Made by a program: the position numbers and the translations under genes
Shown: positions 666 through 21,796 of the stretch, in pieces
Layout: each line of letters opens with the position of its first letter
How positions within the stretch are numbered: the first letter of the stretch is position 1
Source: Bacillota bacterium
GTDB taxonomy: Bacteria > Bacillota > Limnochordia > DTU080
Assembly (NCBI GenBank): GCA_012840225.1
Contig: DULU01000055.1
Location: 1-32,535, forward strand
DNA: 32,535 nt
Direction of reading: 5' to 3'
The notes under the pieces: model-generated
What the model was told of the DNA's origin: nothing
Database searches by the model: none
Seen by the model: the letters and a program-made list of their open reading frames with translations, nothing else

Positions 666-1739
666 ATGGGCCTGAGGGTGGGTATTCCCCGGGCATTGTG
701 GTATTATTCATACTATCCATTCTGGCGAACTTTTTTTGAATCCCTGGGCGCAAAAGTGGTGGACTCAGGCCCCACGAGCCGGGACACTTTAAACATGGGC
801 GTCGACGAAACGGTGAGTGAAGCTTGCGTGCCTATTAAAGTATTTGTTGGGCATGTCAAGTCGCTCATCAAGCGCTGGGAGAAGCGGGAGATCGATGCCA
901 TCTTCATGCCCCGCTATGTCAACTGGAGCGGCCGGACGGTCTATTGTCCCAAATTTTTAGGGCTACCCGACATGATCAGGTACTCTTTCTCAGATCTGCC
1001 GAAATTGATCGAAGTCCGGCTGGACGCCAGGCGAAGACCGCTTGCCCTGCTCAGAGCCTGTAACACCATCCGCAAGGAATTGGGGGCGCCACGGCGCCTG
1101 CTGCTCGGCGCCTATGTGAAAGCCCTGCGCACGCTGCACAGGCATAACGAGTTGCTGCGTCAGGGAGTTTCCCCGCTGGATTCCATCGCCAGCACCGCAG
1201 GCGGCACCTCCGTCAATGCCACCAGCGGTAAAGTGGCCGGGGAGACTAGGGAGGACAGGGAGGCTAGGGACAACAGGGAAACGCCGGTGATTCGCCTGGC
1301 GGTGTTGGGTTATCCCTATCTGATATACGACCGTTATGTCAATCTGGGCCTCCTCGACAAGCTGAAAAATCTGGGCGTGGAAGTGATCACCGCCGAGTGC
1401 GTGTGGCCGCATCTGGTGCAAAAAGAAGCCTCCAAGTTTATAAAAAATCTCTTTTGGACATATAGCGACATGGTAGCCAAAGCCGGTTATTATTTTCTCG
1501 ATCTCGATGCCAACGAGGCCAAACCCGAGGCCCACAGGATCGACGGCATCATTCACATCACTGCCTTCGGTTGCGGCCCCGATGCCATGGTCGATAAATT
1601 ACTGGAATTGAAAGCCCGCCAGCTGAGTAAGCCTTTTCTGCCGCTGACCTTGGACGAACACACCGGCGAAGCGGGCGCTCTGACCAGACTGGAAGCTTTT
1701 GTCGATATGCTCAAGCGCCGGTGCATGACCGCCGGGTGA
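666..1739 (+). CDS. Acyl-CoA dehydratase activase-related protein (DUF2229/HgdB-like), subunit 1
   Basis: The 357-residue protein resembles the DUF2229 / activase-related proteins linked to 2-hydroxyacyl-CoA dehydratase and benzoyl-CoA reductase systems. It starts MGLRVGIPRALWYY, has EACVPIKVFVGH near residues 52-63, VYCPKFLGLPD at 92-102, AFGCGPDAM at 300-308, and the C-terminal signature LDEHTGEAG followed by TRLEAFVD. Cys54, Cys94 and Cys303 align with three cysteines of the next gene product. A 30-35 residue polar insertion at about 172-206 (Ser/Thr/Gly, then Arg/Glu/Asp) comes from repetitive DNA near 1190-1280. ATG 666 is preferred: GGGGAGGA ends 5 bases upstream, whereas a TTG at 651 lies inside that Shine-Dalgarno. 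It is first of three co-directional genes. Its substrate is unknown; a cytoplasmic Fe-S role is inferred. Confidence 0.8.
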   Translation: MGLRVGIPRALWYYSYYPFWRTFFESLGAKVVDSGPTSRDTLNMGVDETVSEACVPIKVFVGHVKSLIKRWEKREIDAIFMPRYVNWSGRTVYCPKFLGLPDMIRYSFSDLPKLIEVRLDARRRPLALLRACNTIRKELGAPRRLLLGAYVKALRTLHRHNELLRQGVSPLDSIASTAGGTSVNATSGKVAGETREDREARDNRETPVIRLAVLGYPYLIYDRYVNLGLLDKLKNLGVEVITAECVWPHLVQKEASKFIKNLFWTYSDMVAKAGYYFLDLDANEAKPEAHRIDGIIHITAFGCGPDAMVDKLLELKARQLSKPFLPLTLDEHTGEAGALTRLEAFVDMLKRRCMTAG

Positions 1740-1757
1740 GCCGGGTGAGCGGCGAGT

Positions 1758-1818
1758 TAGCCAGGTTGCGGCGAGTAGCCAGGTTGCGGCAAGTAGCCAG
1801 GTTGCGGCGAGTAGCCGG
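1758..1818 (+). repeat. 18-bp tandem repeat, three copies plus a partial fourth
   Basis: Units TAGCCAGGTTGCGGCGAG start at 1758, 1776 and 1794 (the second unit ends CAAG instead of CGAG), with a truncated copy at 1812-1818. A more diverged copy precedes them from about 1738. The repeat sits between two co-transcribed activase-related genes and carries in-frame TAG stops. It has no protein-coding role and no clear operator or RNA structure was seen. Confidence 0.85.
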
Positions 1819-1859
1819 GCTTGGGCACTGATAACGGGACAATGGAAGGAGAATCTGCT

Positions 1860-2957
1860 TTGGCTGTGGCCACCTTTCCCCACATGAACGAGTATTCTCC
1901 AGCTTTCCGCATGATATTGGAGGAACTCGGCCACGAGGTGATCATGCCTCTCCGTCCCAGCAAACGCACCCTCACTCTCGGTTCTTCCTTTGGTCCGGAG
2001 TTTGCCTGCATACCGCTGAAGATCCTTCTCGGCACCTATCTGGAAGCCATCGAAAAGGGTGCCAACCTCATCGTCACCTCCGGCGGGGTGGGACCCTGCC
2101 GCGCCGGCTTATATGCCTCCATGCACAAGGAGATCCTGAGAAGCCTGGGCCATGATATCGACATGGTGGTCTTCGAGCCCATCCGTCACAAGCCGCTCGA
2201 TCTGCTCAAATCGGTGCATCGCCTGAATGTGGCCCGCCTCATGCCCTGGCAACTCTTCGATCTGCTTTACAGGGCCTGGCAGATGATCTCCTACCTCGAC
2301 CAGCTGGAACACCTTCTGCACTGGACCAGGCCCAGAGAGCTCAAGCCGGGCACGGCCGATGCCATATATAGAGCCGGGGTGGACAGCCTCTGCAAAGAGC
2401 GCTCTCTCAAAGGCATCACCAGCCGGGGGCGGCAGGCGGTGGCCGAGATGAAAGCCATCCCCATCGATAAAGACGCCGACCCCCTCAAGATCGGCATTGT
2501 CGGGGAAATCTACGTGGTGATCGAACCGGCGGCCAACCTCGACATCGAGCGCATATTGGGCGAGCTGGGGGTGGAAGTGCACCGCTCCATATTCCTCACC
2601 GGCTGGACCAAAGAAAACGTGGTCAAAGAAGGACACCGGGTCAAAGCCGGTATGGTGGCCCGGCCATATCTCGGGGAGATGGTGGGCGGCCACGGCCAGG
2701 AGTCCATCGGGCATACCATTTTATATGCCCGGGAAGGCCTGGACGGCGTGGTGCAGCTCGCCCCGTTTACCTGCATCCCCGAAATCGTGGCCAAATCCAT
2801 ATTGCCGGCGGTCAGCCGGGATTTTGATATCCCCGTGATTTCCTTCTTCCTCGATGAGCAAACCGGAGAGGCCGGCTTCCGCACCAGGCTGGAAGCATTC
2901 GTAGATCTATTGGCCAGGCGCCGCAGCCGAAAACGGCAAGAAAAACAGCCGGCCTGA
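1860..2957 (+). CDS. Acyl-CoA dehydratase activase-related protein (DUF2229/HgdB-like), subunit 2
   Basis: The 365-residue protein is a paralogue of the preceding one. It opens FPHMNEYSPAFR, as this family typically does, then has FACIPLKILLGTY around Cys50, SGGVGPCRAGLY around Cys80 and APFTCIPEI around Cys305. It ends with LDEQTGEAG followed by TRLEAFVD, nearly identical to subunit 1. Three cysteines at matching positions in two paralogous subunits resemble the three cysteines per subunit that hold [4Fe-4S] clusters in 2-hydroxyglutaryl-CoA dehydratase; cluster binding here is inferred. TTG 1860 is chosen because GAAGGAG (1845-1851) lies 8 bases upstream. ATG 1842 and TTG 1821 are possible but lack a good ribosome site. 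It is followed after 37 bases by the ATPase gene. The C-terminus is a basic tail. Confidence 0.8.
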   Translation: MAVATFPHMNEYSPAFRMILEELGHEVIMPLRPSKRTLTLGSSFGPEFACIPLKILLGTYLEAIEKGANLIVTSGGVGPCRAGLYASMHKEILRSLGHDIDMVVFEPIRHKPLDLLKSVHRLNVARLMPWQLFDLLYRAWQMISYLDQLEHLLHWTRPRELKPGTADAIYRAGVDSLCKERSLKGITSRGRQAVAEMKAIPIDKDADPLKIGIVGEIYVVIEPAANLDIERILGELGVEVHRSIFLTGWTKENVVKEGHRVKAGMVARPYLGEMVGGHGQESIGHTILYAREGLDGVVQLAPFTCIPEIVAKSILPAVSRDFDIPVISFFLDEQTGEAGFRTRLEAFVDLLARRRSRKRQEKQPA

Positions 2958-2994
2958 CAATGCAGCGGATTTTGCGGCAACGGGAGGATAAGAA

Positions 2995-4029
2995 TTGGCA
3001 CAAGGCGTTTATATAGGCATAGATGTAGGTTCGGTCTCCACCAATGTGGCCCTGACCGACGAAAATGGCAAGGTCCTTAAGACGGTTTATATGAGGACGC
3101 GGGGGCAGCCCATCGCCGCCACCCAGGAAGCGCTGCAGCAGGCGGGTAAAGCCATCCCCGAGGGCTGCCCGGTTCTGGGTGCGGGAGCCACAGGCAGTGC
3201 CCGCCAGCTCGCCGGGGTGGTCGCCGGCGCCGATGTGATCAAAAATGAGATCACCGCTCATGCGGTGGCGTCGGCCAGCGTCCTTCCCGATGTGCAGACG
3301 GTGATCGAAATCGGCGGTCAGGACTCGAAGATCATCATCCTGCGCCACGGGGTGATCGCCGACTTCGCCATGAACACCGTATGTGCCGCCGGCACCGGCT
3401 CGTTTCTCGACCAGCAAGCCGCCCGTCTCGGCATTCCCATCGAAGAGTTCGGCGCCATCGCCCTCAAGGCCACTTCACCGGTGCGCATCGCCGGACGCTG
3501 CACGGTCTTCGCCGAGTCCGACATGGTCCATAAACAACAGCTGGGCCACAAGCGGGAAGACATCATGTACGGCCTGTGCCAGGCCTTGGTGCGCAATTAT
3601 CTGAATAATGTCGGCCGGGGAAAGGATATCCGCCCCAAAGTGGCCTTCCAAGGCGGCGTGGCCGGCAACCTGGCTATCCGCAAAGCTTTTGAGGAAGCCT
3701 TGCAGATGGAGGTGTTCGTGCCCCCCTATCATGACTGCATGGGGGCCCTGGGCGCTGCTTTCCTGGCGCGGGAAGAGATGGAATACCGCCGGAGAAAAAA
3801 CGGCACCGCCGTCTCCTCCTTCCGCGGCTTCAATGCAAAGGACCTGGCTTTCCAGGCTTCCAGCTTCGAATGCCGGCACTGCCCCAACCATTGCGAGATC
3901 ATTGAGATCAAGCTCCAAGACCGGGTGGTGGGACGCTGGGGTTCCCGCTGCCGCCGCTGGGAAGTGGTGACCCGCGACGAAGAAGGCCAAGCCGCCCAAA
4001 AGCCCGGCCAGGATCGGCGGGCCGGCTGA
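2995..4029 (+). CDS. BadF/BadG/HgdC-type activase ATPase (CoA-substrate-specific enzyme activase)
   Basis: The 344-residue ASKHA-fold ATPase belongs to the family that drives ATP-dependent electron transfer to 2-hydroxyacyl-CoA dehydratases or benzoyl-CoA reductases. Visible motifs are the phosphate-1 loop YIGIDVGSVSTNVAL (6-20), EIGGQDSK (105-112), NTVCAAGTGSFLDQQA (127-142), GRCTVFAESD (167-176) and AFQGGVAGN (217-225). Cys130 and Cys169 match the two cysteines per monomer that share the bridging [4Fe-4S] cluster in HgdC. A C-terminal extension has Cys293-x2-Cys296-x3-Cys300 and Cys319, a possible second metal site. The TTG start follows GGGAGGA at a normal distance. It is third in the cluster, so its natural partners are the two paralogous subunits upstream. 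The electron acceptor and substrate cannot be read from sequence. Confidence 0.88.
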   Translation: MAQGVYIGIDVGSVSTNVALTDENGKVLKTVYMRTRGQPIAATQEALQQAGKAIPEGCPVLGAGATGSARQLAGVVAGADVIKNEITAHAVASASVLPDVQTVIEIGGQDSKIIILRHGVIADFAMNTVCAAGTGSFLDQQAARLGIPIEEFGAIALKATSPVRIAGRCTVFAESDMVHKQQLGHKREDIMYGLCQALVRNYLNNVGRGKDIRPKVAFQGGVAGNLAIRKAFEEALQMEVFVPPYHDCMGALGAAFLAREEMEYRRRKNGTAVSSFRGFNAKDLAFQASSFECRHCPNHCEIIEIKLQDRVVGRWGSRCRRWEVVTRDEEGQAAQKPGQDRRAG

Positions 4030-13376: not shown

Positions 13377-14345
13377 GTGATGACCTTGATGGATTTATCC
13401 CCGGACAAGGAGTTAGAGGCAAAACGCCGCTTGGCACTGAGATGGCGGGCCGATGCCAGCCTGGCTCCGTGGCAGGTCTGGCTCCTGGCTTGCCGCGCCT
13501 CCAGTTTGACAGTTTCTGTCATCTCCGTTCTGGCCGGCACGGCGACTGCCGCCGGGTCGAGCCACTGGCGGCCCGGAGTGTTTTGGCCCACCTTATTCTC
13601 CGCCATGTGCATTCATCTCGGCACCAACCTGATCAACGATTATTTCGACTATATAAACGGTGTCGATACCCATGAAGAAAGATATCGCGAGCATGTGCTG
13701 CCGGCGGGCCTGCTCACCCCCCGCCAGGTGGGGGCGGCGGCGGTGGCGGCTTTCCTCATCGCCATTCTCTTCGGCTTGCCTTTGATCAAGGTGGGCGGTT
13801 GGCCCATACTCACCGTCGGGCTGGCGAGCATAGCCACCGGGGTGTTATATACCGGCGGACCCTGGCCGCTCGGATACAACGGGCTGGGAGATATATTAAC
13901 CTTCGTCTTCTTCGGTCTGGTGGCGGTCTCAGGCACTTTCTACCTGCATGCCGACGGCCTGACCCTCCTGCCGGTCCTGGTCGCCGTGCCCATCGGCAGC
14001 TTGGTCACGGCCATCCTCGCCGCCAACAACACCAGGGACGCCCATATCGATCGCCAGGTAGGCAAACGTACTCTGGCAGTGATGCTCAGCCCGGATTTCA
14101 CCAGAAAGGAATACATAGCTTTGGTGACCGGCGCTTACCTGATGATCCCCTTGATAGTCGCTCTCTACCCGGCGGCAGCCGGCATCTTTCTCTCCTGGCT
14201 CACCTTGCCTTTGGGCTTCTCCCTGGTAAAAGGGATGCTGGCCCCCCATCCCCGGCGGGAGACATGTGACCGCACCCTGGCAGGCACCTTCATGCTACAT
14301 TGGCAATTCGGCCTGCTGGTAACCATCGGCCTGCTCATCGGGTGA
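13377..14345 (+). CDS. menA: UbiA-family prenyltransferase, MenA-like (1,4-dihydroxy-2-naphthoate polyprenyltransferase)
   Basis: The 322-residue integral membrane protein attaches a polyprenyl chain to an aromatic acceptor; in MenA this makes demethylmenaquinone. The first Asp-rich motif is NLINDYFDYINGVD (84-97) and the second is NNTRDAHIDRQVGKRTLAV (217-235), the form typical of MenA. Eight or nine hydrophobic helices are visible. The start is uncertain: GTG 13377, ATG 13380 and ATG 13389 all lack a good ribosome site. The best nearby Shine-Dalgarno, GAGGAGG at about 13346-13352, points at a TTG at 13358 that is in another frame. Either a leader peptide or weak initiation is possible. No other menaquinone gene is present, so the exact substrate is inferred from motifs. 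The 3' end overlaps addA by 51 bases, tail to tail. Confidence 0.8.
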   Translation: MMTLMDLSPDKELEAKRRLALRWRADASLAPWQVWLLACRASSLTVSVISVLAGTATAAGSSHWRPGVFWPTLFSAMCIHLGTNLINDYFDYINGVDTHEERYREHVLPAGLLTPRQVGAAAVAAFLIAILFGLPLIKVGGWPILTVGLASIATGVLYTGGPWPLGYNGLGDILTFVFFGLVAVSGTFYLHADGLTLLPVLVAVPIGSLVTAILAANNTRDAHIDRQVGKRTLAVMLSPDFTRKEYIALVTGAYLMIPLIVALYPAAAGIFLSWLTLPLGFSLVKGMLAPHPRRETCDRTLAGTFMLHWQFGLLVTIGLLIG

Positions 14346-17300
14346 GAGGGAAAGCGTCTCGGGGACCGGCACGGCGATGCCGGGGGTGAGCAGGTAGATA
14401 TAGCTTTCCTTGATGCGGCAGTCCATCACCTGCCGGAGAGCCCGGCGGTATAATACGAGCTGCAAACCATAGGTTTTCAGGGCGGCTTCCGCCATGGCGG
14501 CTCTGTTTAGGCCAGGGAATCTGTCGGTTTTAAAGTCGAGGAGCACCCAGCCGTCGGGTTCCTCAAATATGCAGTCCACCACCCCTTGCAGAAACACTTC
14601 CTCGGTGCTGGTGCCGAGGCTGAGGCGGCGAGCCGGCACAGCCACCATAAAAGGCAACTCCCGGAACACCCGGCGGCCGGCCTGCGCCGCCGCCTGCCGG
14701 CGGCGCCCGATGGGGCTTTTCAGGAAATTAAGCACAGCTGCCTGGTCGACCGCCCGGGCATCCTCGGCGGTTAGAAGGGAGCGGGCGACCATTTCTGCGA
14801 GAAAACTCGCCAGCTCGGGGGCCGTATACTCTCGCTCGGGGGGCAGGTGCTGCAAAAGGAGGTGTGTGACGGTGCCGGCATGCGTCCCGCCGGCGGTGCC
14901 GAGGAACTGCGGCAATCTTAATCTGTAAGCCGGATAGAGATCATACCCCGGGTTGTCGTCGCCCGAGGCGGCGGCGAGCCAGGACCTTTTCAGTCCGGTG
15001 ACGCTGGTTTTCACCGGCAGGGTGGCAGCTTCGGCGTGAGGATAGCGCCACCGGAATTTTTCCATGGGAAAATCGGGGAATGCCGGCTTGGCGGTGGGCT
15101 CGGCAGTTGGCTCAGCGGTCGACTCGGCGGATGGCTCGGCCGCCGGCGAACCTGCGGGCAAGCCTTCTGTGGGCAAGCCCTGCGGCAGGAGGTGCACCCG
15201 CCAGTGGCGCTGCCGATCCTCACCGGTGAACTTCGCCGCTTTGGTGGTAGCCAACAGTTCCGGCACCAGGCCGTCCTTCCTGGTGAGAACGGGCATCAGC
15301 CAGTCGAGGTAGGAGCGGGCACCGACGGCCCAGAACGCCGGCCGGCCAGCCCGGTCCGCGCTGGGACCATCTTCATCGCCGGGGAGGCCGATCTCGCCGA
15401 CCTGCCGCCATTTATGCAACTTCCCTTCCAGATCCGCCACGGTGCCGACCAGCACCAGGCGCTCCCTCGCCCTGGTCATGGCGACATAAAGGACGCGCAT
15501 CTCCTCGGACAAAGCCGCCCGCCGGATTGCCTCCTTCACGGCCAGGTTGGGCAGGGTGGCTGTTTTGGTGCGCCTCGCGGCATTCATATATTGCGCCCCA
15601 AGGCCGAGGTCTCTCTCAAAGAGCATAGCGCCCATGGTGTCCTGCATATTGAAGGGCGAACCCAAGCCCGCCACGATCACCACCGGAAACTCCAGGCCCT
15701 TGCTTTTGTGAATGCTCATTAAGCGCACCACATTACCCTCTGCGCTCAATGCCGGCGGGGTAGCGAGATCCTCTCCGTTTTGCCGCAGGTCGGCTACAAA
15801 ATCGAGGAACCTGGACAAACCCTGGCGGCTGAAGCGGCCGAACTGTCGGGCCCGCTCATAGAGGGCCCGCAGATTAGCCTGCCTTTGCTCCGGATGAGGC
15901 CAGCCGCCCACATAGTCGTAGAAAGCCGTCTCGGTATAGATGCCCCAGATCAGATCGGAGAGGCTGCCGCGCCTGGCCTGGGTGCGCCAGCGGTCCAGCC
16001 TGAGCAGGAAACGGTGCAGCTTTTGCCCCAGAGTATCTGCGACGGCGGCCCTTTTGCGCACAGCCTCATAAAATTCACCCACAGGCAGAGAGCGGCGAAT
16101 AGCCAAGAGGTCCGCCGCTGAGAGCCCCACCAGCGGCGAGCGCAGCACGCCGGCCAGGGGTATATCCTGCCGGGGATTGTCGATGACGGCCAGAAGGGCA
16201 AGCATGATCTCCACTTCGGGAGCCTGGAAATAGCCGCTGCCGCTTTCGGTATAAAGGGGCACCCCCTCAGCTTGGAACACCTCGGCAAACTGGGCCGCCT
16301 TAACATTGGTAGCCCGCAGAAGCACGGCGATATCCCCATATGTCAGGAGGCGATGTTCCCCGGCGCGGCGATCGAAAATCATGGTCTTCCGGGCTACCAG
16401 ATTTTTGATATATCTCGCCACGAAGGCCGCCTCAAGAGCGGAAGCCTCCATCTCCGCCATCCCGCCGGCGGTGCCGTCCACCCCACCGGCACCGTCCATC
16501 CCGGTCTCGCTATCGGCCGCTCCGGTCAGTTCTTCACCGCTCTCCTCCCCGGCCTGCTCCGCCCCCTCTCCGGAGGCGGCATAATGCGCCGGATCGCCCT
16601 CCAGAAGGAACAGCTCCACCGGCGGCTCTTCCTCCGGATACGGCGGATATGGAGCGGCATAGATGAGAGCGGCCCGCTCGTCATAGACCACGCCGCCCAT
16701 CTCCCGGCTCATGACGGCCCGAAAGAGGTCGTTCACGCCCTCGATCACCCGCCGTCGGCAGCGGAAATTTTCGGCCAGGTGAATCATCAGCCAATCGGGG
16801 CTATTCTCCGCTTTCTCAGAGCGGTTGAGGAAGATGGCCGGTTCCGCCAGACGGAAGCGATAGATGCTCTGCTTGACGTCGCCCACCACAAAAAACGGCA
16901 GGCGGCGGCGGGCGGCTTCGCCTCCATCGGCATCAACTGCATCGCCGGCGTTCACCTCGCTGCCGTCCACTTCATCGTCGCCGTTCACTTCATCGCCCAA
17001 TCCGGTCAACAGGGTGAAAATAGCGTCCTGAACAGGGTTTATATCCTGGTATTCATCACAGAAGACTTCCTGGAAAAAGGCTCGCAGTTCCAACGCGGTC
17101 TCGCCGGGAATCAGCCGTCCGGGAGTCGAAGCGGGGTGCCTGAAAAGCTCCAGGCAAAGCCGCTCCAGATCGGAAAAGTTGACCAGGCTGCGCTCCTTTT
17201 TCACCTCGGCATATTTTGCCGCAAAACCCTCCACCAGCTCGATCAAAGCCGCCACCGGCACCTCCGTCCGGCGGATCAACTCCAGCTCTTCGGCTGCCGG

Positions 17301-18281
17301 GCGGGCAAACACTTTTTGCCTTAAGCCGGCGATCACTTTTTTGGCGCTGTCCCGTAAGGTCTGCACCTGCTCCAACAGTTTCTGGTCGACCTCCAGGCCG
17401 ACATCGGCTTTCCTGCTTCGCCTGGCCGGGCGGAAGCTCACGGCGGAGAGGGCCGCCTTGATCTCGTCCCAGCTTCTGTCGTGTTTCAGCATCAGCTCCA
17501 GATCCGCCAGTTGGCTGAGGTCGCTGTCCAAGGGCTCCAGGTAATGCCCCGGGCCGCCTATTTGGGCCGCCAGGCGGCGGGCAGTGAGGAGTTCCGCCCG
17601 GGCTTTCTCCACTTCAGCTCTGGCCTGCTCTTTCACCGGCGGCCACCAGGGTGTCTCTTCCAGGCGACCGGCCAAAGCTTCTCCATAAGCGCGCCTGGTG
17701 TCAGCGAGCCATTTCTCCGGCCACACCTGGCTGCCGGCGAAATCATATAAGCGCAGGATCAGCCGGCGCAGCCGCTCACCGCCCCGGTCGCTGTAATTGT
17801 CCATAAGCTGGTAGAAGGGCGTACCGGGATCACCCTGGCGATAGCACTCCTCCAGCACCTGCCCCAGCACTTCCCGCTTCAGCAGCCGGTCTTCCGCTTC
17901 ATCCAGCACCTGAAAAGAGGGATCCAGATCAAGGCGATAATAGTAATTATGCAACACCCATAGGCAAAAGGCGTGCAGGGTGGAAATATGCGCTCCGGGC
18001 AAAAGGGTGAGCTGCCTGGAAAAGCGACCGCCTTCATCGGCCACCAGGCGCCTCTCTTCCAGGGCGGCGGCAATTCGTTCCCTCATTTCCAGAGCGGCCG
18101 CCTCGGTGAAAGTGACCACCAGGAGGCGGTCGATATCGCAGCCGGCCTCTATCACTTTGCGGATAACCCTCTCCACCAAAACCGCCGTTTTTCCGGAGCC
18201 GGCGGCGGCGGAGACCAAAAGACCGCTTTTGTCCTTCCAGATCGCCTTCCTTTGGGCATCCGTCCATTTGACCTCAGCCAT
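14295..18281 (-). CDS. addA: ATP-dependent helicase/nuclease subunit A
   Basis: This 1328-residue UvrD-type helicase with a C-terminal RecB-family nuclease forms the AddAB complex, which resects double-strand breaks for recombination. Motifs in order: TDAQRKAIW Q-motif, Walker A SAAAGSGKT (24-32), motif II FCDEYQD, motif III VGDVKQSIYRFR, helicase motif SIHKSKGLEFP, motif VI-like VAMTRARERL, and the nuclease centre GVVDCIFEEPDG...LLDFKTDR. It is about 100 residues longer than common AddA proteins. The excess sits in three low-complexity insertions: an acidic Asp/Gly/Val run between motifs II and III, a Glu/Gly/Ala-rich run near 16440-16590, and a Pro/Ala/Glu/Thr run near 15090-15180. ATG 18281 has AGGAAG about 9 bases upstream. 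It follows addB after 44 bases. Confidence 0.96.
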   Translation of the reverse strand: MAEVKWTDAQRKAIWKDKSGLLVSAAAGSGKTAVLVERVIRKVIEAGCDIDRLLVVTFTEAAALEMRERIAAALEERRLVADEGGRFSRQLTLLPGAHISTLHAFCLWVLHNYYYRLDLDPSFQVLDEAEDRLLKREVLGQVLEECYRQGDPGTPFYQLMDNYSDRGGERLRRLILRLYDFAGSQVWPEKWLADTRRAYGEALAGRLEETPWWPPVKEQARAEVEKARAELLTARRLAAQIGGPGHYLEPLDSDLSQLADLELMLKHDRSWDEIKAALSAVSFRPARRSRKADVGLEVDQKLLEQVQTLRDSAKKVIAGLRQKVFARPAAEELELIRRTEVPVAALIELVEGFAAKYAEVKKERSLVNFSDLERLCLELFRHPASTPGRLIPGETALELRAFFQEVFCDEYQDINPVQDAIFTLLTGLGDEVNGDDEVDGSEVNAGDAVDADGGEAARRRLPFFVVGDVKQSIYRFRLAEPAIFLNRSEKAENSPDWLMIHLAENFRCRRRVIEGVNDLFRAVMSREMGGVVYDERAALIYAAPYPPYPEEEPPVELFLLEGDPAHYAASGEGAEQAGEESGEELTGAADSETGMDGAGGVDGTAGGMAEMEASALEAAFVARYIKNLVARKTMIFDRRAGEHRLLTYGDIAVLLRATNVKAAQFAEVFQAEGVPLYTESGSGYFQAPEVEIMLALLAVIDNPRQDIPLAGVLRSPLVGLSAADLLAIRRSLPVGEFYEAVRKRAAVADTLGQKLHRFLLRLDRWRTQARRGSLSDLIWGIYTETAFYDYVGGWPHPEQRQANLRALYERARQFGRFSRQGLSRFLDFVADLRQNGEDLATPPALSAEGNVVRLMSIHKSKGLEFPVVIVAGLGSPFNMQDTMGAMLFERDLGLGAQYMNAARRTKTATLPNLAVKEAIRRAALSEEMRVLYVAMTRARERLVLVGTVADLEGKLHKWRQVGEIGLPGDEDGPSADRAGRPAFWAVGARSYLDWLMPVLTRKDGLVPELLATTKAAKFTGEDRQRHWRVHLLPQGLPTEGLPAGSPAAEPSAESTAEPTAEPTAKPAFPDFPMEKFRWRYPHAEAATLPVKTSVTGLKRSWLAAASGDDNPGYDLYPAYRLRLPQFLGTAGGTHAGTVTHLLLQHLPPEREYTAPELASFLAEMVARSLLTAEDARAVDQAAVLNFLKSPIGRRRQAAAQAGRRVFRELPFMVAVPARRLSLGTSTEEVFLQGVVDCIFEEPDGWVLLDFKTDRFPGLNRAAMAEAALKTYGLQLVLYRRALRQVMDCRIKESYIYLLTPGIAVPVPETLSLSPDEQADGYQQAELPM

Positions 18282-18325
18282 CTTGTTTACTTCCTGTTCC
18301 CTAAAAAATTTGCCTATCCGGGCGG

Positions 18326-21300
18326 CTAAATTTCTCCTGAGCCGGCTTCCTGTACCGACTCCGGGCGCCCGGCATAGGCATCCAGATACCGGTAACTATT
18401 CCCGGCAAAGCGGATGTCGAAAAAGCACACCTGATGATAGGGGCAATAGGTGCAGGCCGACTCGCCGGGGCCATAACGATAAGGTCTGATGTGCGCCTCG
18501 CCCAGGAGAAGGCTTTGGCCGATGGCGGCGACAGTCTTCTCCACCGCCTGCAGCAAGGCCTGAAGCTGCTCTTCGCTCAGGGTATATTGACTTTTGGCGG
18601 GAGTGCCGTCCCGCCGCAGCCTGGCGGGAATCAAGAGCCCCGTCCCTTCGCTATCGCTCAGCGCAATCACCGTGGGATCGCCCACCGTCAAACCCGATAG
18701 GCGGAGCGCCCTGAGCAGCTTCTCTTCCAGGTCGGCCTCATCGAGCGGCACGTTTTCCTCCACCCAGGGCTCATATACATTGAAATAATAAAACCCGGCC
18801 GGCCGCACGGCCTGTATGTTTTTTTCCGCCAGCCGGCCGGACCGGCCTGTCTCGCCGACACCCGGCACAGGGCTGCTTTGCATATGCATTGTCAAAAGAC
18901 CGCGCTTTATACACTCCAGGGCCGTCAGCAGATAGACCGGAAGCTGCAGGCGCAGGCCGTAATGCATATCGCTGTATCTGAAGGCGGCCGTACTGCCTTT
19001 ATAGTCGATCACCCGGCAATAGAGGACTCCTCCCGCCACGGCGACATCGATGCGGTCGATGCGCCCTTCCAAACAAAGCTCCAGACCGCCGGGAAGCGTC
19101 AGGCGACCGGCGGCCGGCACCTCTTGGCTCCGGCTCCCGAAGGTCCCGAAGGAAAACTCCGTGGCCACCGGACGGAACGAGCTCTTCTGCCAATGCTGCA
19201 ACAGCGCTTTGATGGCGAGATTAAGGGTCTGCTTGATGCGCTGCACCATATATTGATGCCCGGCACTGGACAAAAACACCTCATGGCGTAGCCGGGGCGC
19301 CTCTTTGTCCACAATCTGCTCCGCCAAAGCCATAGCCTCATCAGGGAGGGGGACATATCCCGGGTCCTGCTCCGCCCTTTTCATGATGTATCTCACCAGC
19401 CGGTGCAGAGTCTCATGCACCAGGCGGCCCACATCGGTATGCTCAATCCTATAAACTTCCCTTTGGTCGAGCCGCAGGATGTATTGGGCGAAATGGCGGA
19501 AGGGACAGGCCGCCATCACTTCCAGGCGGGACACTGCCGCCTTCAGTCTCCGGCCGGCGCTAAGCTCATCCGCCAGGCCGGGCACGAGACCAGCCTCATT
19601 GGTGAAAGAGAGGGAGGAGAGGATATGATTTATACTCTCATCGCCCAAAGAGCGGAGGAAATTGACGGCGGCACTGGGCTCACCCAGGCCGCGCCTTTTT
19701 ACCAGATCGGCCGCCAGCTGCCGGGGAGAGGTATAGTCCTCCATCTCCTCACCGACCACTCTCACCTGCGCCCCCGGGAAGATAGCCTGGAGGCGCTGGA
19801 AAAATGGAGAAGGAGCAGCGGCCCGGCCGTCGTCCCCGGCTTGCGTATAACTGACCCACAACAGCTCGGAAGCCCTGGTTAAGGCGATATAGCACAGATA
19901 TTCCTCATGCCACAGCCGGCGCGGCTTGGTCGGAGGCAGGCTGAAGCCGCGTTCCGCCAAAAGGCGCCGCTCCATATCGGTGAGCACAGGATCGTCTTCC
20001 CCGGGCAGAGGGAAGAATTTGTCATTCAGGCCGAGGAGGTATACCGCCCGCAGCTCTGGCTGGCGGGAGCGATCGACGGCTCCTATCAGCACCTGGTCCG
20101 CCGTGGGCGGGATCAGACCCATCTCCAGGCTCTCCAGTCCGGTTTCGATGATCCTCCGGAATTCGCCGGGAGAGACGGGATACGCGCCGCCTACGGCCAC
20201 CAGCTGTTCCAGCAAATCGACCAGCTTCTCCCAGACCTGCTGATGGAGCTGGGCTTCGGCAGCCCGGCCCTCCTCGCGGGCGGCAGTCACCCATTCCTCC
20301 AGGCGGGCGCGCAAGTCCACCTTTTCATAAAAATGATATATAGCTTCCGCTCCCCGGGCGACCGTCAGCTCCCCCGACCGGAAGCAATCGAGAGGGGCCA
20401 AGGCCAACATCACCCGCAGCCGCGCCTGATCCGGCTCTACGGCTCCCGGCGACATGGTGCCTGGTGCCACAGTACCCGGCCAGGGTTCCGCCTGTGTCCA
20501 GGCTTTGCCGGTGAGGCCGAAGCGCAAAGCCAGGTTTTCCAGCACGTCGGCTTCATCCCTGGTGACGGGCAGCAAATCGGTTTTCAGGCAGCGCAATATA
20601 TCTTTGGTATCGTTGTGGTTGGCCACGGCGGCGAGCGCCGATCTGGTCAGCTCCACCGCCGGATGATGGGCCACCGGCCGGCGGCGGTCGATAAAATATG
20701 GTATACCATAATCGGTGAAGACCGCGGAGATCAGATCGTCATATGGCTCCAGGTGGCGCACAATGACGGCCATTTCTCTGAATCTATAGTCATAATCCCG
20801 GCAGAGCCTGATAATATCCCGGGCGACCGCTTCCACCTCAGCGCGGCGGTTGGCGGCGGCTACCAGCCGGATGGCGGACACCGCTCCTTCATAAGCGGCC
20901 GGCGGCACGGCGGTGAACTGTTCCGCCACATGCTCCAGCTCGGCCTGCTTAAAGCGGGGCGCTTTCCGGGAAAGGATCAGGGGTGGAGCCAGGGGGGTGC
21001 CGCAAGCCTCGGCCATGGCCTTAATGTGCCCGGCGCTTTCGGCCGCCTGCACGAAAGCTCTGTCGGCTTTGGTGGCTGAGCCGGGAGCGGCGAAAGCACC
21101 CGGCGGCAGGCATAAAGCCACATGCACTTCGGCCGCCGCCTGCATCAGCGCCCGCAGAAAACGATATTCCTGCACTGTGAAGCTGGAAAAGCCGTCGATC
21201 CACACTCTGGCCGACCGGATAAACCCGGAAGCGGGGAGCGCCTCGGCCGCCATCTGCAGATAATCGTCGCTGTTGGTATGGTCGGCGGCCACCGCCCGGC

Positions 21301-21796
21301 GAAACTCGGCCCAAATCAGGCTTAAGTCGGCCAGTTTGAGACCGACCGCCCCTTGATGAGCGGCGGCCAGGCGGCCCAACTCTTCCGGATCATGCCCATA
21401 CTGGGCAAGCTCACGCAGAGCGGCTTCCAGAGCGACCACAAAACCCGGTTGGCGGGCCGCCCGGTGGAAGACCCGCAACCGGCTTTCATGCTTCTGCAGC
21501 AGCATGCGCAACAACATGTGGCGGCCGAGCGGGGTCAGGGCCGGACGGGCCAACCCGCCGGTCTCCGCCAGGATGCGCAAAGCCAGCCGGGAGAAGCCCA
21601 TCACATACAAACGGCAAAAGCCCTTGCGGGAGAGCGAACGGGCCAGCGCCGCCTCCATCTGGAAAGTGGCCTGCTCCGGAACGATATATATCAAAGGAGG
21701 ACCGATAGGCTGCTCTTCCAGGGCAGAACGGATCTCCTCCAGGCAGGTATGGGTCTTACCGGTGCCGGCCCGGCCGATGATGAAGCGCAGGGACAT
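18326..21796 (-). CDS. addB: ATP-dependent helicase/nuclease subunit B
   Basis: This 1156-residue partner of AddA carries the second nuclease and the Fe-S domain. A Walker A GRAGTGKT lies at 8-15. The nuclease motif reads GRIDRIDVAVAGG followed by RVIDYKGS. The four iron-sulphur cysteines are one in MAACPFRHFAQYIL and three in CTYCPYHQVCFFD (C-x2-C-x5-C) near the C-terminus, the arrangement seen in Bacillus AddB. The length fits the family. A short Pro/Gly insertion (EPWPGTVAPGTMSPG, encoded near 20435-20490) interrupts the middle. It is preceded by the FecR-domain gene with 40 bases between, and followed by addA. The ribosome site is weak (AGGAGA about 13 bases away), so translation may depend on the upstream gene. 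Confidence 0.95.
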   Translation of the reverse strand: MSLRFIIGRAGTGKTHTCLEEIRSALEEQPIGPPLIYIVPEQATFQMEAALARSLSRKGFCRLYVMGFSRLALRILAETGGLARPALTPLGRHMLLRMLLQKHESRLRVFHRAARQPGFVVALEAALRELAQYGHDPEELGRLAAAHQGAVGLKLADLSLIWAEFRRAVAADHTNSDDYLQMAAEALPASGFIRSARVWIDGFSSFTVQEYRFLRALMQAAAEVHVALCLPPGAFAAPGSATKADRAFVQAAESAGHIKAMAEACGTPLAPPLILSRKAPRFKQAELEHVAEQFTAVPPAAYEGAVSAIRLVAAANRRAEVEAVARDIIRLCRDYDYRFREMAVIVRHLEPYDDLISAVFTDYGIPYFIDRRRPVAHHPAVELTRSALAAVANHNDTKDILRCLKTDLLPVTRDEADVLENLALRFGLTGKAWTQAEPWPGTVAPGTMSPGAVEPDQARLRVMLALAPLDCFRSGELTVARGAEAIYHFYEKVDLRARLEEWVTAAREEGRAAEAQLHQQVWEKLVDLLEQLVAVGGAYPVSPGEFRRIIETGLESLEMGLIPPTADQVLIGAVDRSRQPELRAVYLLGLNDKFFPLPGEDDPVLTDMERRLLAERGFSLPPTKPRRLWHEEYLCYIALTRASELLWVSYTQAGDDGRAAAPSPFFQRLQAIFPGAQVRVVGEEMEDYTSPRQLAADLVKRRGLGEPSAAVNFLRSLGDESINHILSSLSFTNEAGLVPGLADELSAGRRLKAAVSRLEVMAACPFRHFAQYILRLDQREVYRIEHTDVGRLVHETLHRLVRYIMKRAEQDPGYVPLPDEAMALAEQIVDKEAPRLRHEVFLSSAGHQYMVQRIKQTLNLAIKALLQHWQKSSFRPVATEFSFGTFGSRSQEVPAAGRLTLPGGLELCLEGRIDRIDVAVAGGVLYCRVIDYKGSTAAFRYSDMHYGLRLQLPVYLLTALECIKRGLLTMHMQSSPVPGVGETGRSGRLAEKNIQAVRPAGFYYFNVYEPWVEENVPLDEADLEEKLLRALRLSGLTVGDPTVIALSDSEGTGLLIPARLRRDGTPAKSQYTLSEEQLQALLQAVEKTVAAIGQSLLLGEAHIRPYRYGPGESACTYCPYHQVCFFDIRFAGNSYRYLDAYAGRPESVQEAGSGEI

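Follow-up and report, generated by a model that had tools for sequence, protein, structure and literature searches.

Which reaction is served by an HgdC-type ATPase encoded next to two related but separately encoded DUF2229 proteins? The question is raised by three adjacent genes, here named A, B, and C, at positions 666–4,029 of contig DULU01000055.1 from a Bacillota bacterium (Limnochordia; DTU080; assembly GCA_012840225.1). The window, that is, the whole stretch analyzed, is this one complete contig of 32,535 bp from a 3.55-Mb draft genome. An original prediction described the trio as a fully split acyl-CoA dehydratase/activase-like system. Sequence, domain mapping, and operon context indicate that enzymes of the PlsA/Ger type, which reduce lipid esters, are a better description. 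We are fairly confident that the trio is an ATP-driven iron-sulfur ester reductase resembling PlsA and Ger whose Red1, Red2, and Act2 parts are encoded by separate genes (A, B, and C, respectively), with glycerolipids as its presumed substrate. This assignment draws on homology, fold, conserved cysteines, the mapping of the subunits, and the operon contexts of relatives.

The three genes lie on the forward strand, each preceded by a plausible ribosome-binding site, and their positions and cysteine numbers are those of the original prediction. Gene A (666–1739, 357 amino acids) starts with ATG after GGGGAGG and encodes the Red1-like DUF2229 subunit (Pfam PF09989, E = 1.6e-48). Gene B (1860–2957, 365 amino acids) starts with TTG after AAGGAGA, longer frames starting at 1821 or 1842 being possible, and encodes a second, Red2-like DUF2229-related subunit, whose N-terminal part matches PF09989 (E = 2.6e-10). 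Gene C (2995–4029, 344 amino acids), which starts with TTG after GGGAGG, encodes the Act2-like activator, a BadF/BcrA/HgdC-type ATPase matching PF01869 (E = 3.4e-48) and TIGR00241. A and B are paralogs, with 25% identity across 361 columns in BLASTP (E = 1e-18). They had been credited with common start and end signatures (LDE-H/Q-TGEAG...TRLEAFVD); the motif is indeed common to both, but in each it is confined to the C-terminus.

Among functionally studied enzymes, the plasmalogen synthase PlsA and the glycerol ester reductase Ger are the closest to the trio. PlsA has a pair of activation domains and a pair of reduction/dehydration domains (PMC12838417). It is encoded by a single gene in Enterococcus, Lactococcus, and Bifidobacterium and, as PlsA-PlsR, by CPE1194-1195 in Clostridium perfringens. 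In heterologous expression, PlsA converts acyl esters into vinyl ethers, and Ger, a PlsA-like enzyme known from Thermotoga maritima and Desulfatibacillum alkenivorans, converts esters into alkyl ethers (PMC12838417, PMC11150832, PMC13274423). In the class to which the window belongs, fused proteins of about 1,400 amino acids have the order Act1-Act2-Red1-Red2: along them, the profile of C matches twice, followed by that of A and then that of B. Red1 is thus the counterpart of A, Red2 that of B, and Act2 that of C, and the similarity spans most of both reductase domains. One of these fused proteins is 54–62% identical to proteins of Listeria (54%), Collinsella, and Acetoanaerobium; the Listeria and Acetoanaerobium copies, from records filed as plasmids, served as our PlsA anchors. 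Orthologs of plsA occur in Listeria and Enterococcus faecalis (PMC9702350). The domain order of the fused proteins, the identity to the Listeria protein, and the plsA literature together lead to the equivalence of A with Red1, B with Red2, and C with Act2. The trio therefore resembles PlsA in its two reductase domains, in the subfamily of its BadF activator, and in a domain-by-domain match. All Bacillota genomes screened in a recent study contain additional PlsA homologs without an activation domain, whose role was unclear (PMC13274423, 2026). We infer that these are the A and B proteins, and ester reductases split into subunits, with an ATPase encoded on its own, would account for them.

The reductase subunits carry three cysteines each (A Cys54, Cys94, and Cys303; B Cys50, Cys80, and Cys305, which are residues 63, 93, and 318 when counted from the TTG at 1821). 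BLASTP aligns all three pairs, whose matching positions the original prediction had noted. Its proposed conservation check was run on about 80 homologous cassettes gathered from named genomes and relatives of the window genome, and was passed, the two sets being essentially invariant. Among the aligned homologs, Cys54 of A is present in 76 of 77 and Cys94 and Cys303 in 77/77, and each of the three cysteines of B in 83/83, whereas Cys132, Cys245, and Cys353 of A and Cys178 of B vary. The six columns are kept in the trios (A, 82–83 of 83; B, 81–83 of 83), in PlsA (9/9), in a two-gene form described below (6/6), and in the actinobacterial pairs (23/23), so that the three cysteines of Red1 and Red2 occupy the same columns as those of A and B. 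In C, Cys130, Cys169, Cys293, Cys296, Cys300, and Cys319 are all present in 71 of 71 aligned homologs. Cys130 and Cys169 align with the cluster ligands of HgdC (1hux) and MbdQ (9gai_D), making C an HgdC-type ATPase with the intersubunit cluster cysteines. The four others form a C-terminal module (Cys293-x2-Cys296-x3-Cys300-x18-Cys319; 3871–3951, forward strand) that probably is an extra Fe-S site. As it is invariant in the 71 homologs, it is a conserved feature and not a chance occurrence. It had been regarded as an extra site of this ATPase; however, 81 of 84 trio ATPases carry the same C-x2-C-x3-C...C tail, and in PlsA-type proteins it sits on Act2 (7/8) and is missing from Act1.

AlphaFold2 models of A (mean pLDDT 89.9; 51 homologs in the alignment) and B (mean pLDDT 93.2; 55 homologs) were compared with the PDB by Foldseek, retaining matches at E ≤ 0.001. 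All 13 matches of A are 2-hydroxyacyl-CoA dehydratases (HAD), benzoyl-CoA reductases (BCR), or DCCP, the best being HadB (3o3n_B, E = 4.4e-9). The same holds for the first 17 of 18 matches of B, the best being 3o3m (E = 3.3e-10); the eighteenth is another protein and is weak. The chains matched include 2-hydroxyisocaproyl-CoA dehydratase, DCCP, and benzoyl-CoA reductase. According to the models, A and B have the HAD/BCR/DCCP fold, and the conserved cysteines are placed at the N-terminus of a helix or beside one. The likeness to HgdA/HgdB first pointed out for this locus is therefore real: a paralogous pair, three conserved cysteines in each subunit, a modeled HgdAB-like fold, and an HgdC-type ATPase.

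A clue to the substrate that is independent of the homology to PlsA, and suggests the same direction, comes from Actinomycetota. In a metagenome-assembled genome (L049:4886–12788), two A-B pairs lie between gpsA, encoding glycerol-3-phosphate dehydrogenase, and a gene for a glycerol-3-phosphate acyltransferase (GPAT). The arrangement gpsA-A-B-(A-B)-GPAT was found in seven Actinomycetota genomes (L049 and its relatives, L220–L225). Pfam confirms gpsA and/or GPAT in the first genome and in five of the six others, and phmmer matches do so in the last. For an A-B module located between the genes whose enzymes make and acylate glycerol-3-phosphate, acylglycerol esters are the simplest substrate to assume. 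In the A+B tree, these pairs nest inside the radiation of the trios. All seven genomes encode a trio-type C elsewhere, with 56–58% identity to C of the window; as it is encoded away from A-B in each of them, the activator probably acts in trans.

The cassette A-B-C, with a slightly variable order, was found in dozens of genomes of Bacillota, Thermotogota, Asgard, and some Actinomycetota. The fully split state, initially regarded as unusual, is thus common. The activator gene is separate and beside A and B in most Bacillota loci, and at another site of the genome in Actinomycetota. A homologous trio of Monoglobus pectinilyticus already carries generic names in RefSeq (acyl-CoA dehydratase activase-related protein, 2-hydroxyacyl-CoA dehydratase, and acyl-CoA dehydratase activase). 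Within the HAD/BCR superfamily, the trios belong to the PlsA-like branch, of which they are a common, split, and uncharacterized form. In the A+B tree, they form their own clade, PlsA being separated by long branches, and a third clade contains two-gene systems composed of an Act-Act and a Red-Red protein. The window genome also has such a system, on contig C79 (L120:10155–15330; Act-Act of 809 and Red-Red of 897 amino acids), which is possibly its Ger- or PlsA-like enzyme. At two loci (L119:4493–6649 and L147:5220–7451), A and B are fused into a protein of 720–740 amino acids and followed by a separate C, an organization intermediate between split and fused. TetR-family genes lie directly 5' of three trios from different lineages (L019:5373–5984, L047:5270–5836, and L051:5427–5915), an arrangement that weakly parallels plsA of E. 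faecalis, which also has a TetR gene upstream (PMC9702350). In relatives of Tepidanaerobacter (L010, L014, L015, L017, and L024), two NfnA/NfnB-like oxidoreductase genes precede the trio and could plausibly supply low-potential electrons.

Several observations weigh against a plain identification with PlsA or with a lipid ester reductase. The trio consists of three genes rather than one or two and lacks Act1: in place of two fused BadF activation domains, it has a single separate activator of the Act2 type. Ger, with which we compared the trio by its published description, likewise has two activation domains (PMC13274423). The trios do not fall inside the PlsA clade in the A+B tree, and A is only about 28% identical to Red1; with such an identity and long branches, orthology of function with PlsA cannot be assumed. 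The root of the A/B tree, placed by the paralogs, is unstable and the supports are low, and for this reason none of our claims rests on it. The trio of the window has no lipid gene beside it, and conserved metabolic neighbors are lacking for many trios of Bacillota. Lacking Act1 and forming a clade of its own, but otherwise resembling PlsA/Ger in every feature that could be compared, the system is termed PlsA-like here rather than assigned to PlsA or Ger.

Both the original prediction and automatic annotation would make the trio a true 2-hydroxyacyl-CoA dehydratase or an acyl-CoA reductase, a reading that the HAD fold, the three conserved cysteines per subunit, and the RefSeq names of the Monoglobus trio favor. 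We nevertheless consider it improbable. In sequence-profile searches, A and B resemble HAD-beta, and also DCCP, only across the C-terminal 60–70 residues, a region that includes the third cysteine and the TR-EAF motif, whereas their similarity to PlsA extends over the greater part of both domains. With HgdAB/HadBC and HgdC/HadI, the trio thus shares the fold, the paralogous subunit pair, and the HgdC-like ATPase, but the full-length likeness is at the level of the fold only, and its activator differs by the 4-Cys tail. It also differs in its neighbors: neither the first 9 kb of the window, where the contig starts, nor the trio neighborhoods scanned contain a CoA-transferase, ligase, 2-hydroxyacid dehydrogenase, or other CoA-ester pathway gene, a weak argument drawn from context only. 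The original prediction had correctly noted that no CoA-transferase, dehydrogenase, or acyl-CoA gene is nearby. We give just as little credit to the idea that the system is a DCCP-like enzyme reducing small molecules in general or supplies another enzyme with low-potential electrons, which the shared superfamily and the Nfn-like genes of the Tepidanaerobacter relatives would favor. DCCP reduces acetylene, hydrazine, and azide, with a physiological role that is unknown, and its subunits bind a double-cubane cluster through six cysteine ligands (PMC11971306). A and B have only three conserved cysteines each and not the six required, which rules out such a cluster. With DCCP/DCCP-R of Carboxydothermus and the class I benzoyl-CoA reductase BzdNO(PQ), the trio shares the superfamily and the ATP-driven activation of electrons. 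Identities as DCCP, benzoyl-CoA reductase, or methanogenesis marker 15 were each rejected by the cysteine count or by curated score cut-offs.

The remaining alternatives come from the association with spore genes. In 59 genomes of the class of the window, we identified 54 standalone A genes, 37 of which are directly downstream of a GerA-family gene on the same strand. This gene occupies the position that spoVAF has in Bacillus subtilis (spoVAF-lysA). The GerA-linked trios (GerA-family gene-A-B-C, mostly with lysA next; L105–L118, L121, and L144) share a conserved neighborhood with lysA and scpAB and form a subclade paralogous to the trio of the window. In a genome of the same family as the window (G002, L092:983–3851), a window-type A-B-C is followed by spoVAC and spoVAD, SpoVAD being recognized by Pfam and SpoVAC by eye. 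The two-gene systems of the window genome and of G001 adjoin spoVAC/D/E genes, that of the window genome being near spoVAD/spoVAE. The spoVA context therefore occurs in three different gene arrangements; within each, synteny is shared by descent, so the syntenic cases are not independent. These contexts would suit a sporulation-specific reductase expressed with the spoVA genes and acting on a substrate other than a membrane lipid, such as a spore small molecule, peptidoglycan, or a protein cofactor. We regard this as unlikely, if slightly less so than the two readings above: trios are also present in Thermotogota, Asgard, and Actinomycetota lineages, and the glycerolipid operon indicates a lipid. 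A lipid of the spore membrane as substrate would explain both contexts. A role of the window trio in the spore membrane is possible, and, as a more tentative and rather doubtful extension, the family could be a dedicated spore ether/vinyl-ether lipid synthase co-transcribed with spoVA genes. The forespore inner membrane, the site of the SpoVA/GerA machinery, would then be remodeled from ester to ether lipids. If so, the formation of endospores by anaerobes would involve a hitherto hidden iron-sulfur lipid reductase driven by ATP, and the same A-B module would serve a committed ether-lipid pathway (gpsA-A-B-GPAT) in Actinomycetota.

For the PlsA/Ger-like ester reductase that we favor, the cluster types, electron route, substrate, and product can be proposed by analogy with HAD, BCR, and PlsA. 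A dimer of C would hold a single [4Fe-4S] cluster between its subunits through Cys130 and Cys169, and would take an electron from ferredoxin or flavodoxin, possibly by way of a second cluster bound by the 4-Cys tail. With the energy of ATP hydrolysis, low-potential electrons would be injected one by one into the three-cysteine cluster of either A or B, which would pass them to an open-site [4Fe-4S] cluster of the other. At this open site, the acyl-ester carbonyl of a glycerolipid would be reduced to a hemiacetal by way of a ketyl-type radical. Loss of water would then give a vinyl ether, as in plasmalogens, and further reduction an alkyl ether. Some genomes probably use a single C, acting in trans, for several A-B pairs. 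Such an enzyme would matter for the question of which bacteria make the ether and membrane-spanning lipids that serve as climate proxies, and for understanding how difficult reductions are powered in anaerobes, and its repeated association with spoVA would link ether-lipid chemistry to spores.

Within the window, the gap between A and B contains 3.7 copies of an 18-bp tandem repeat (1749–1816, no strand assigned), from which we infer no function. A scan for sigma-70 promoters around the trio gave nothing above chance. On its 3' side, the trio is followed by a gene for a peptidoglycan-binding/LysM protein and one for a peroxiredoxin. Farther downstream, on the reverse strand, two adjacent large open reading frames (14295–21796) resemble, from their translations judged by eye only, the AddA and AddB subunits of the helicase-nuclease, an ordinary feature.

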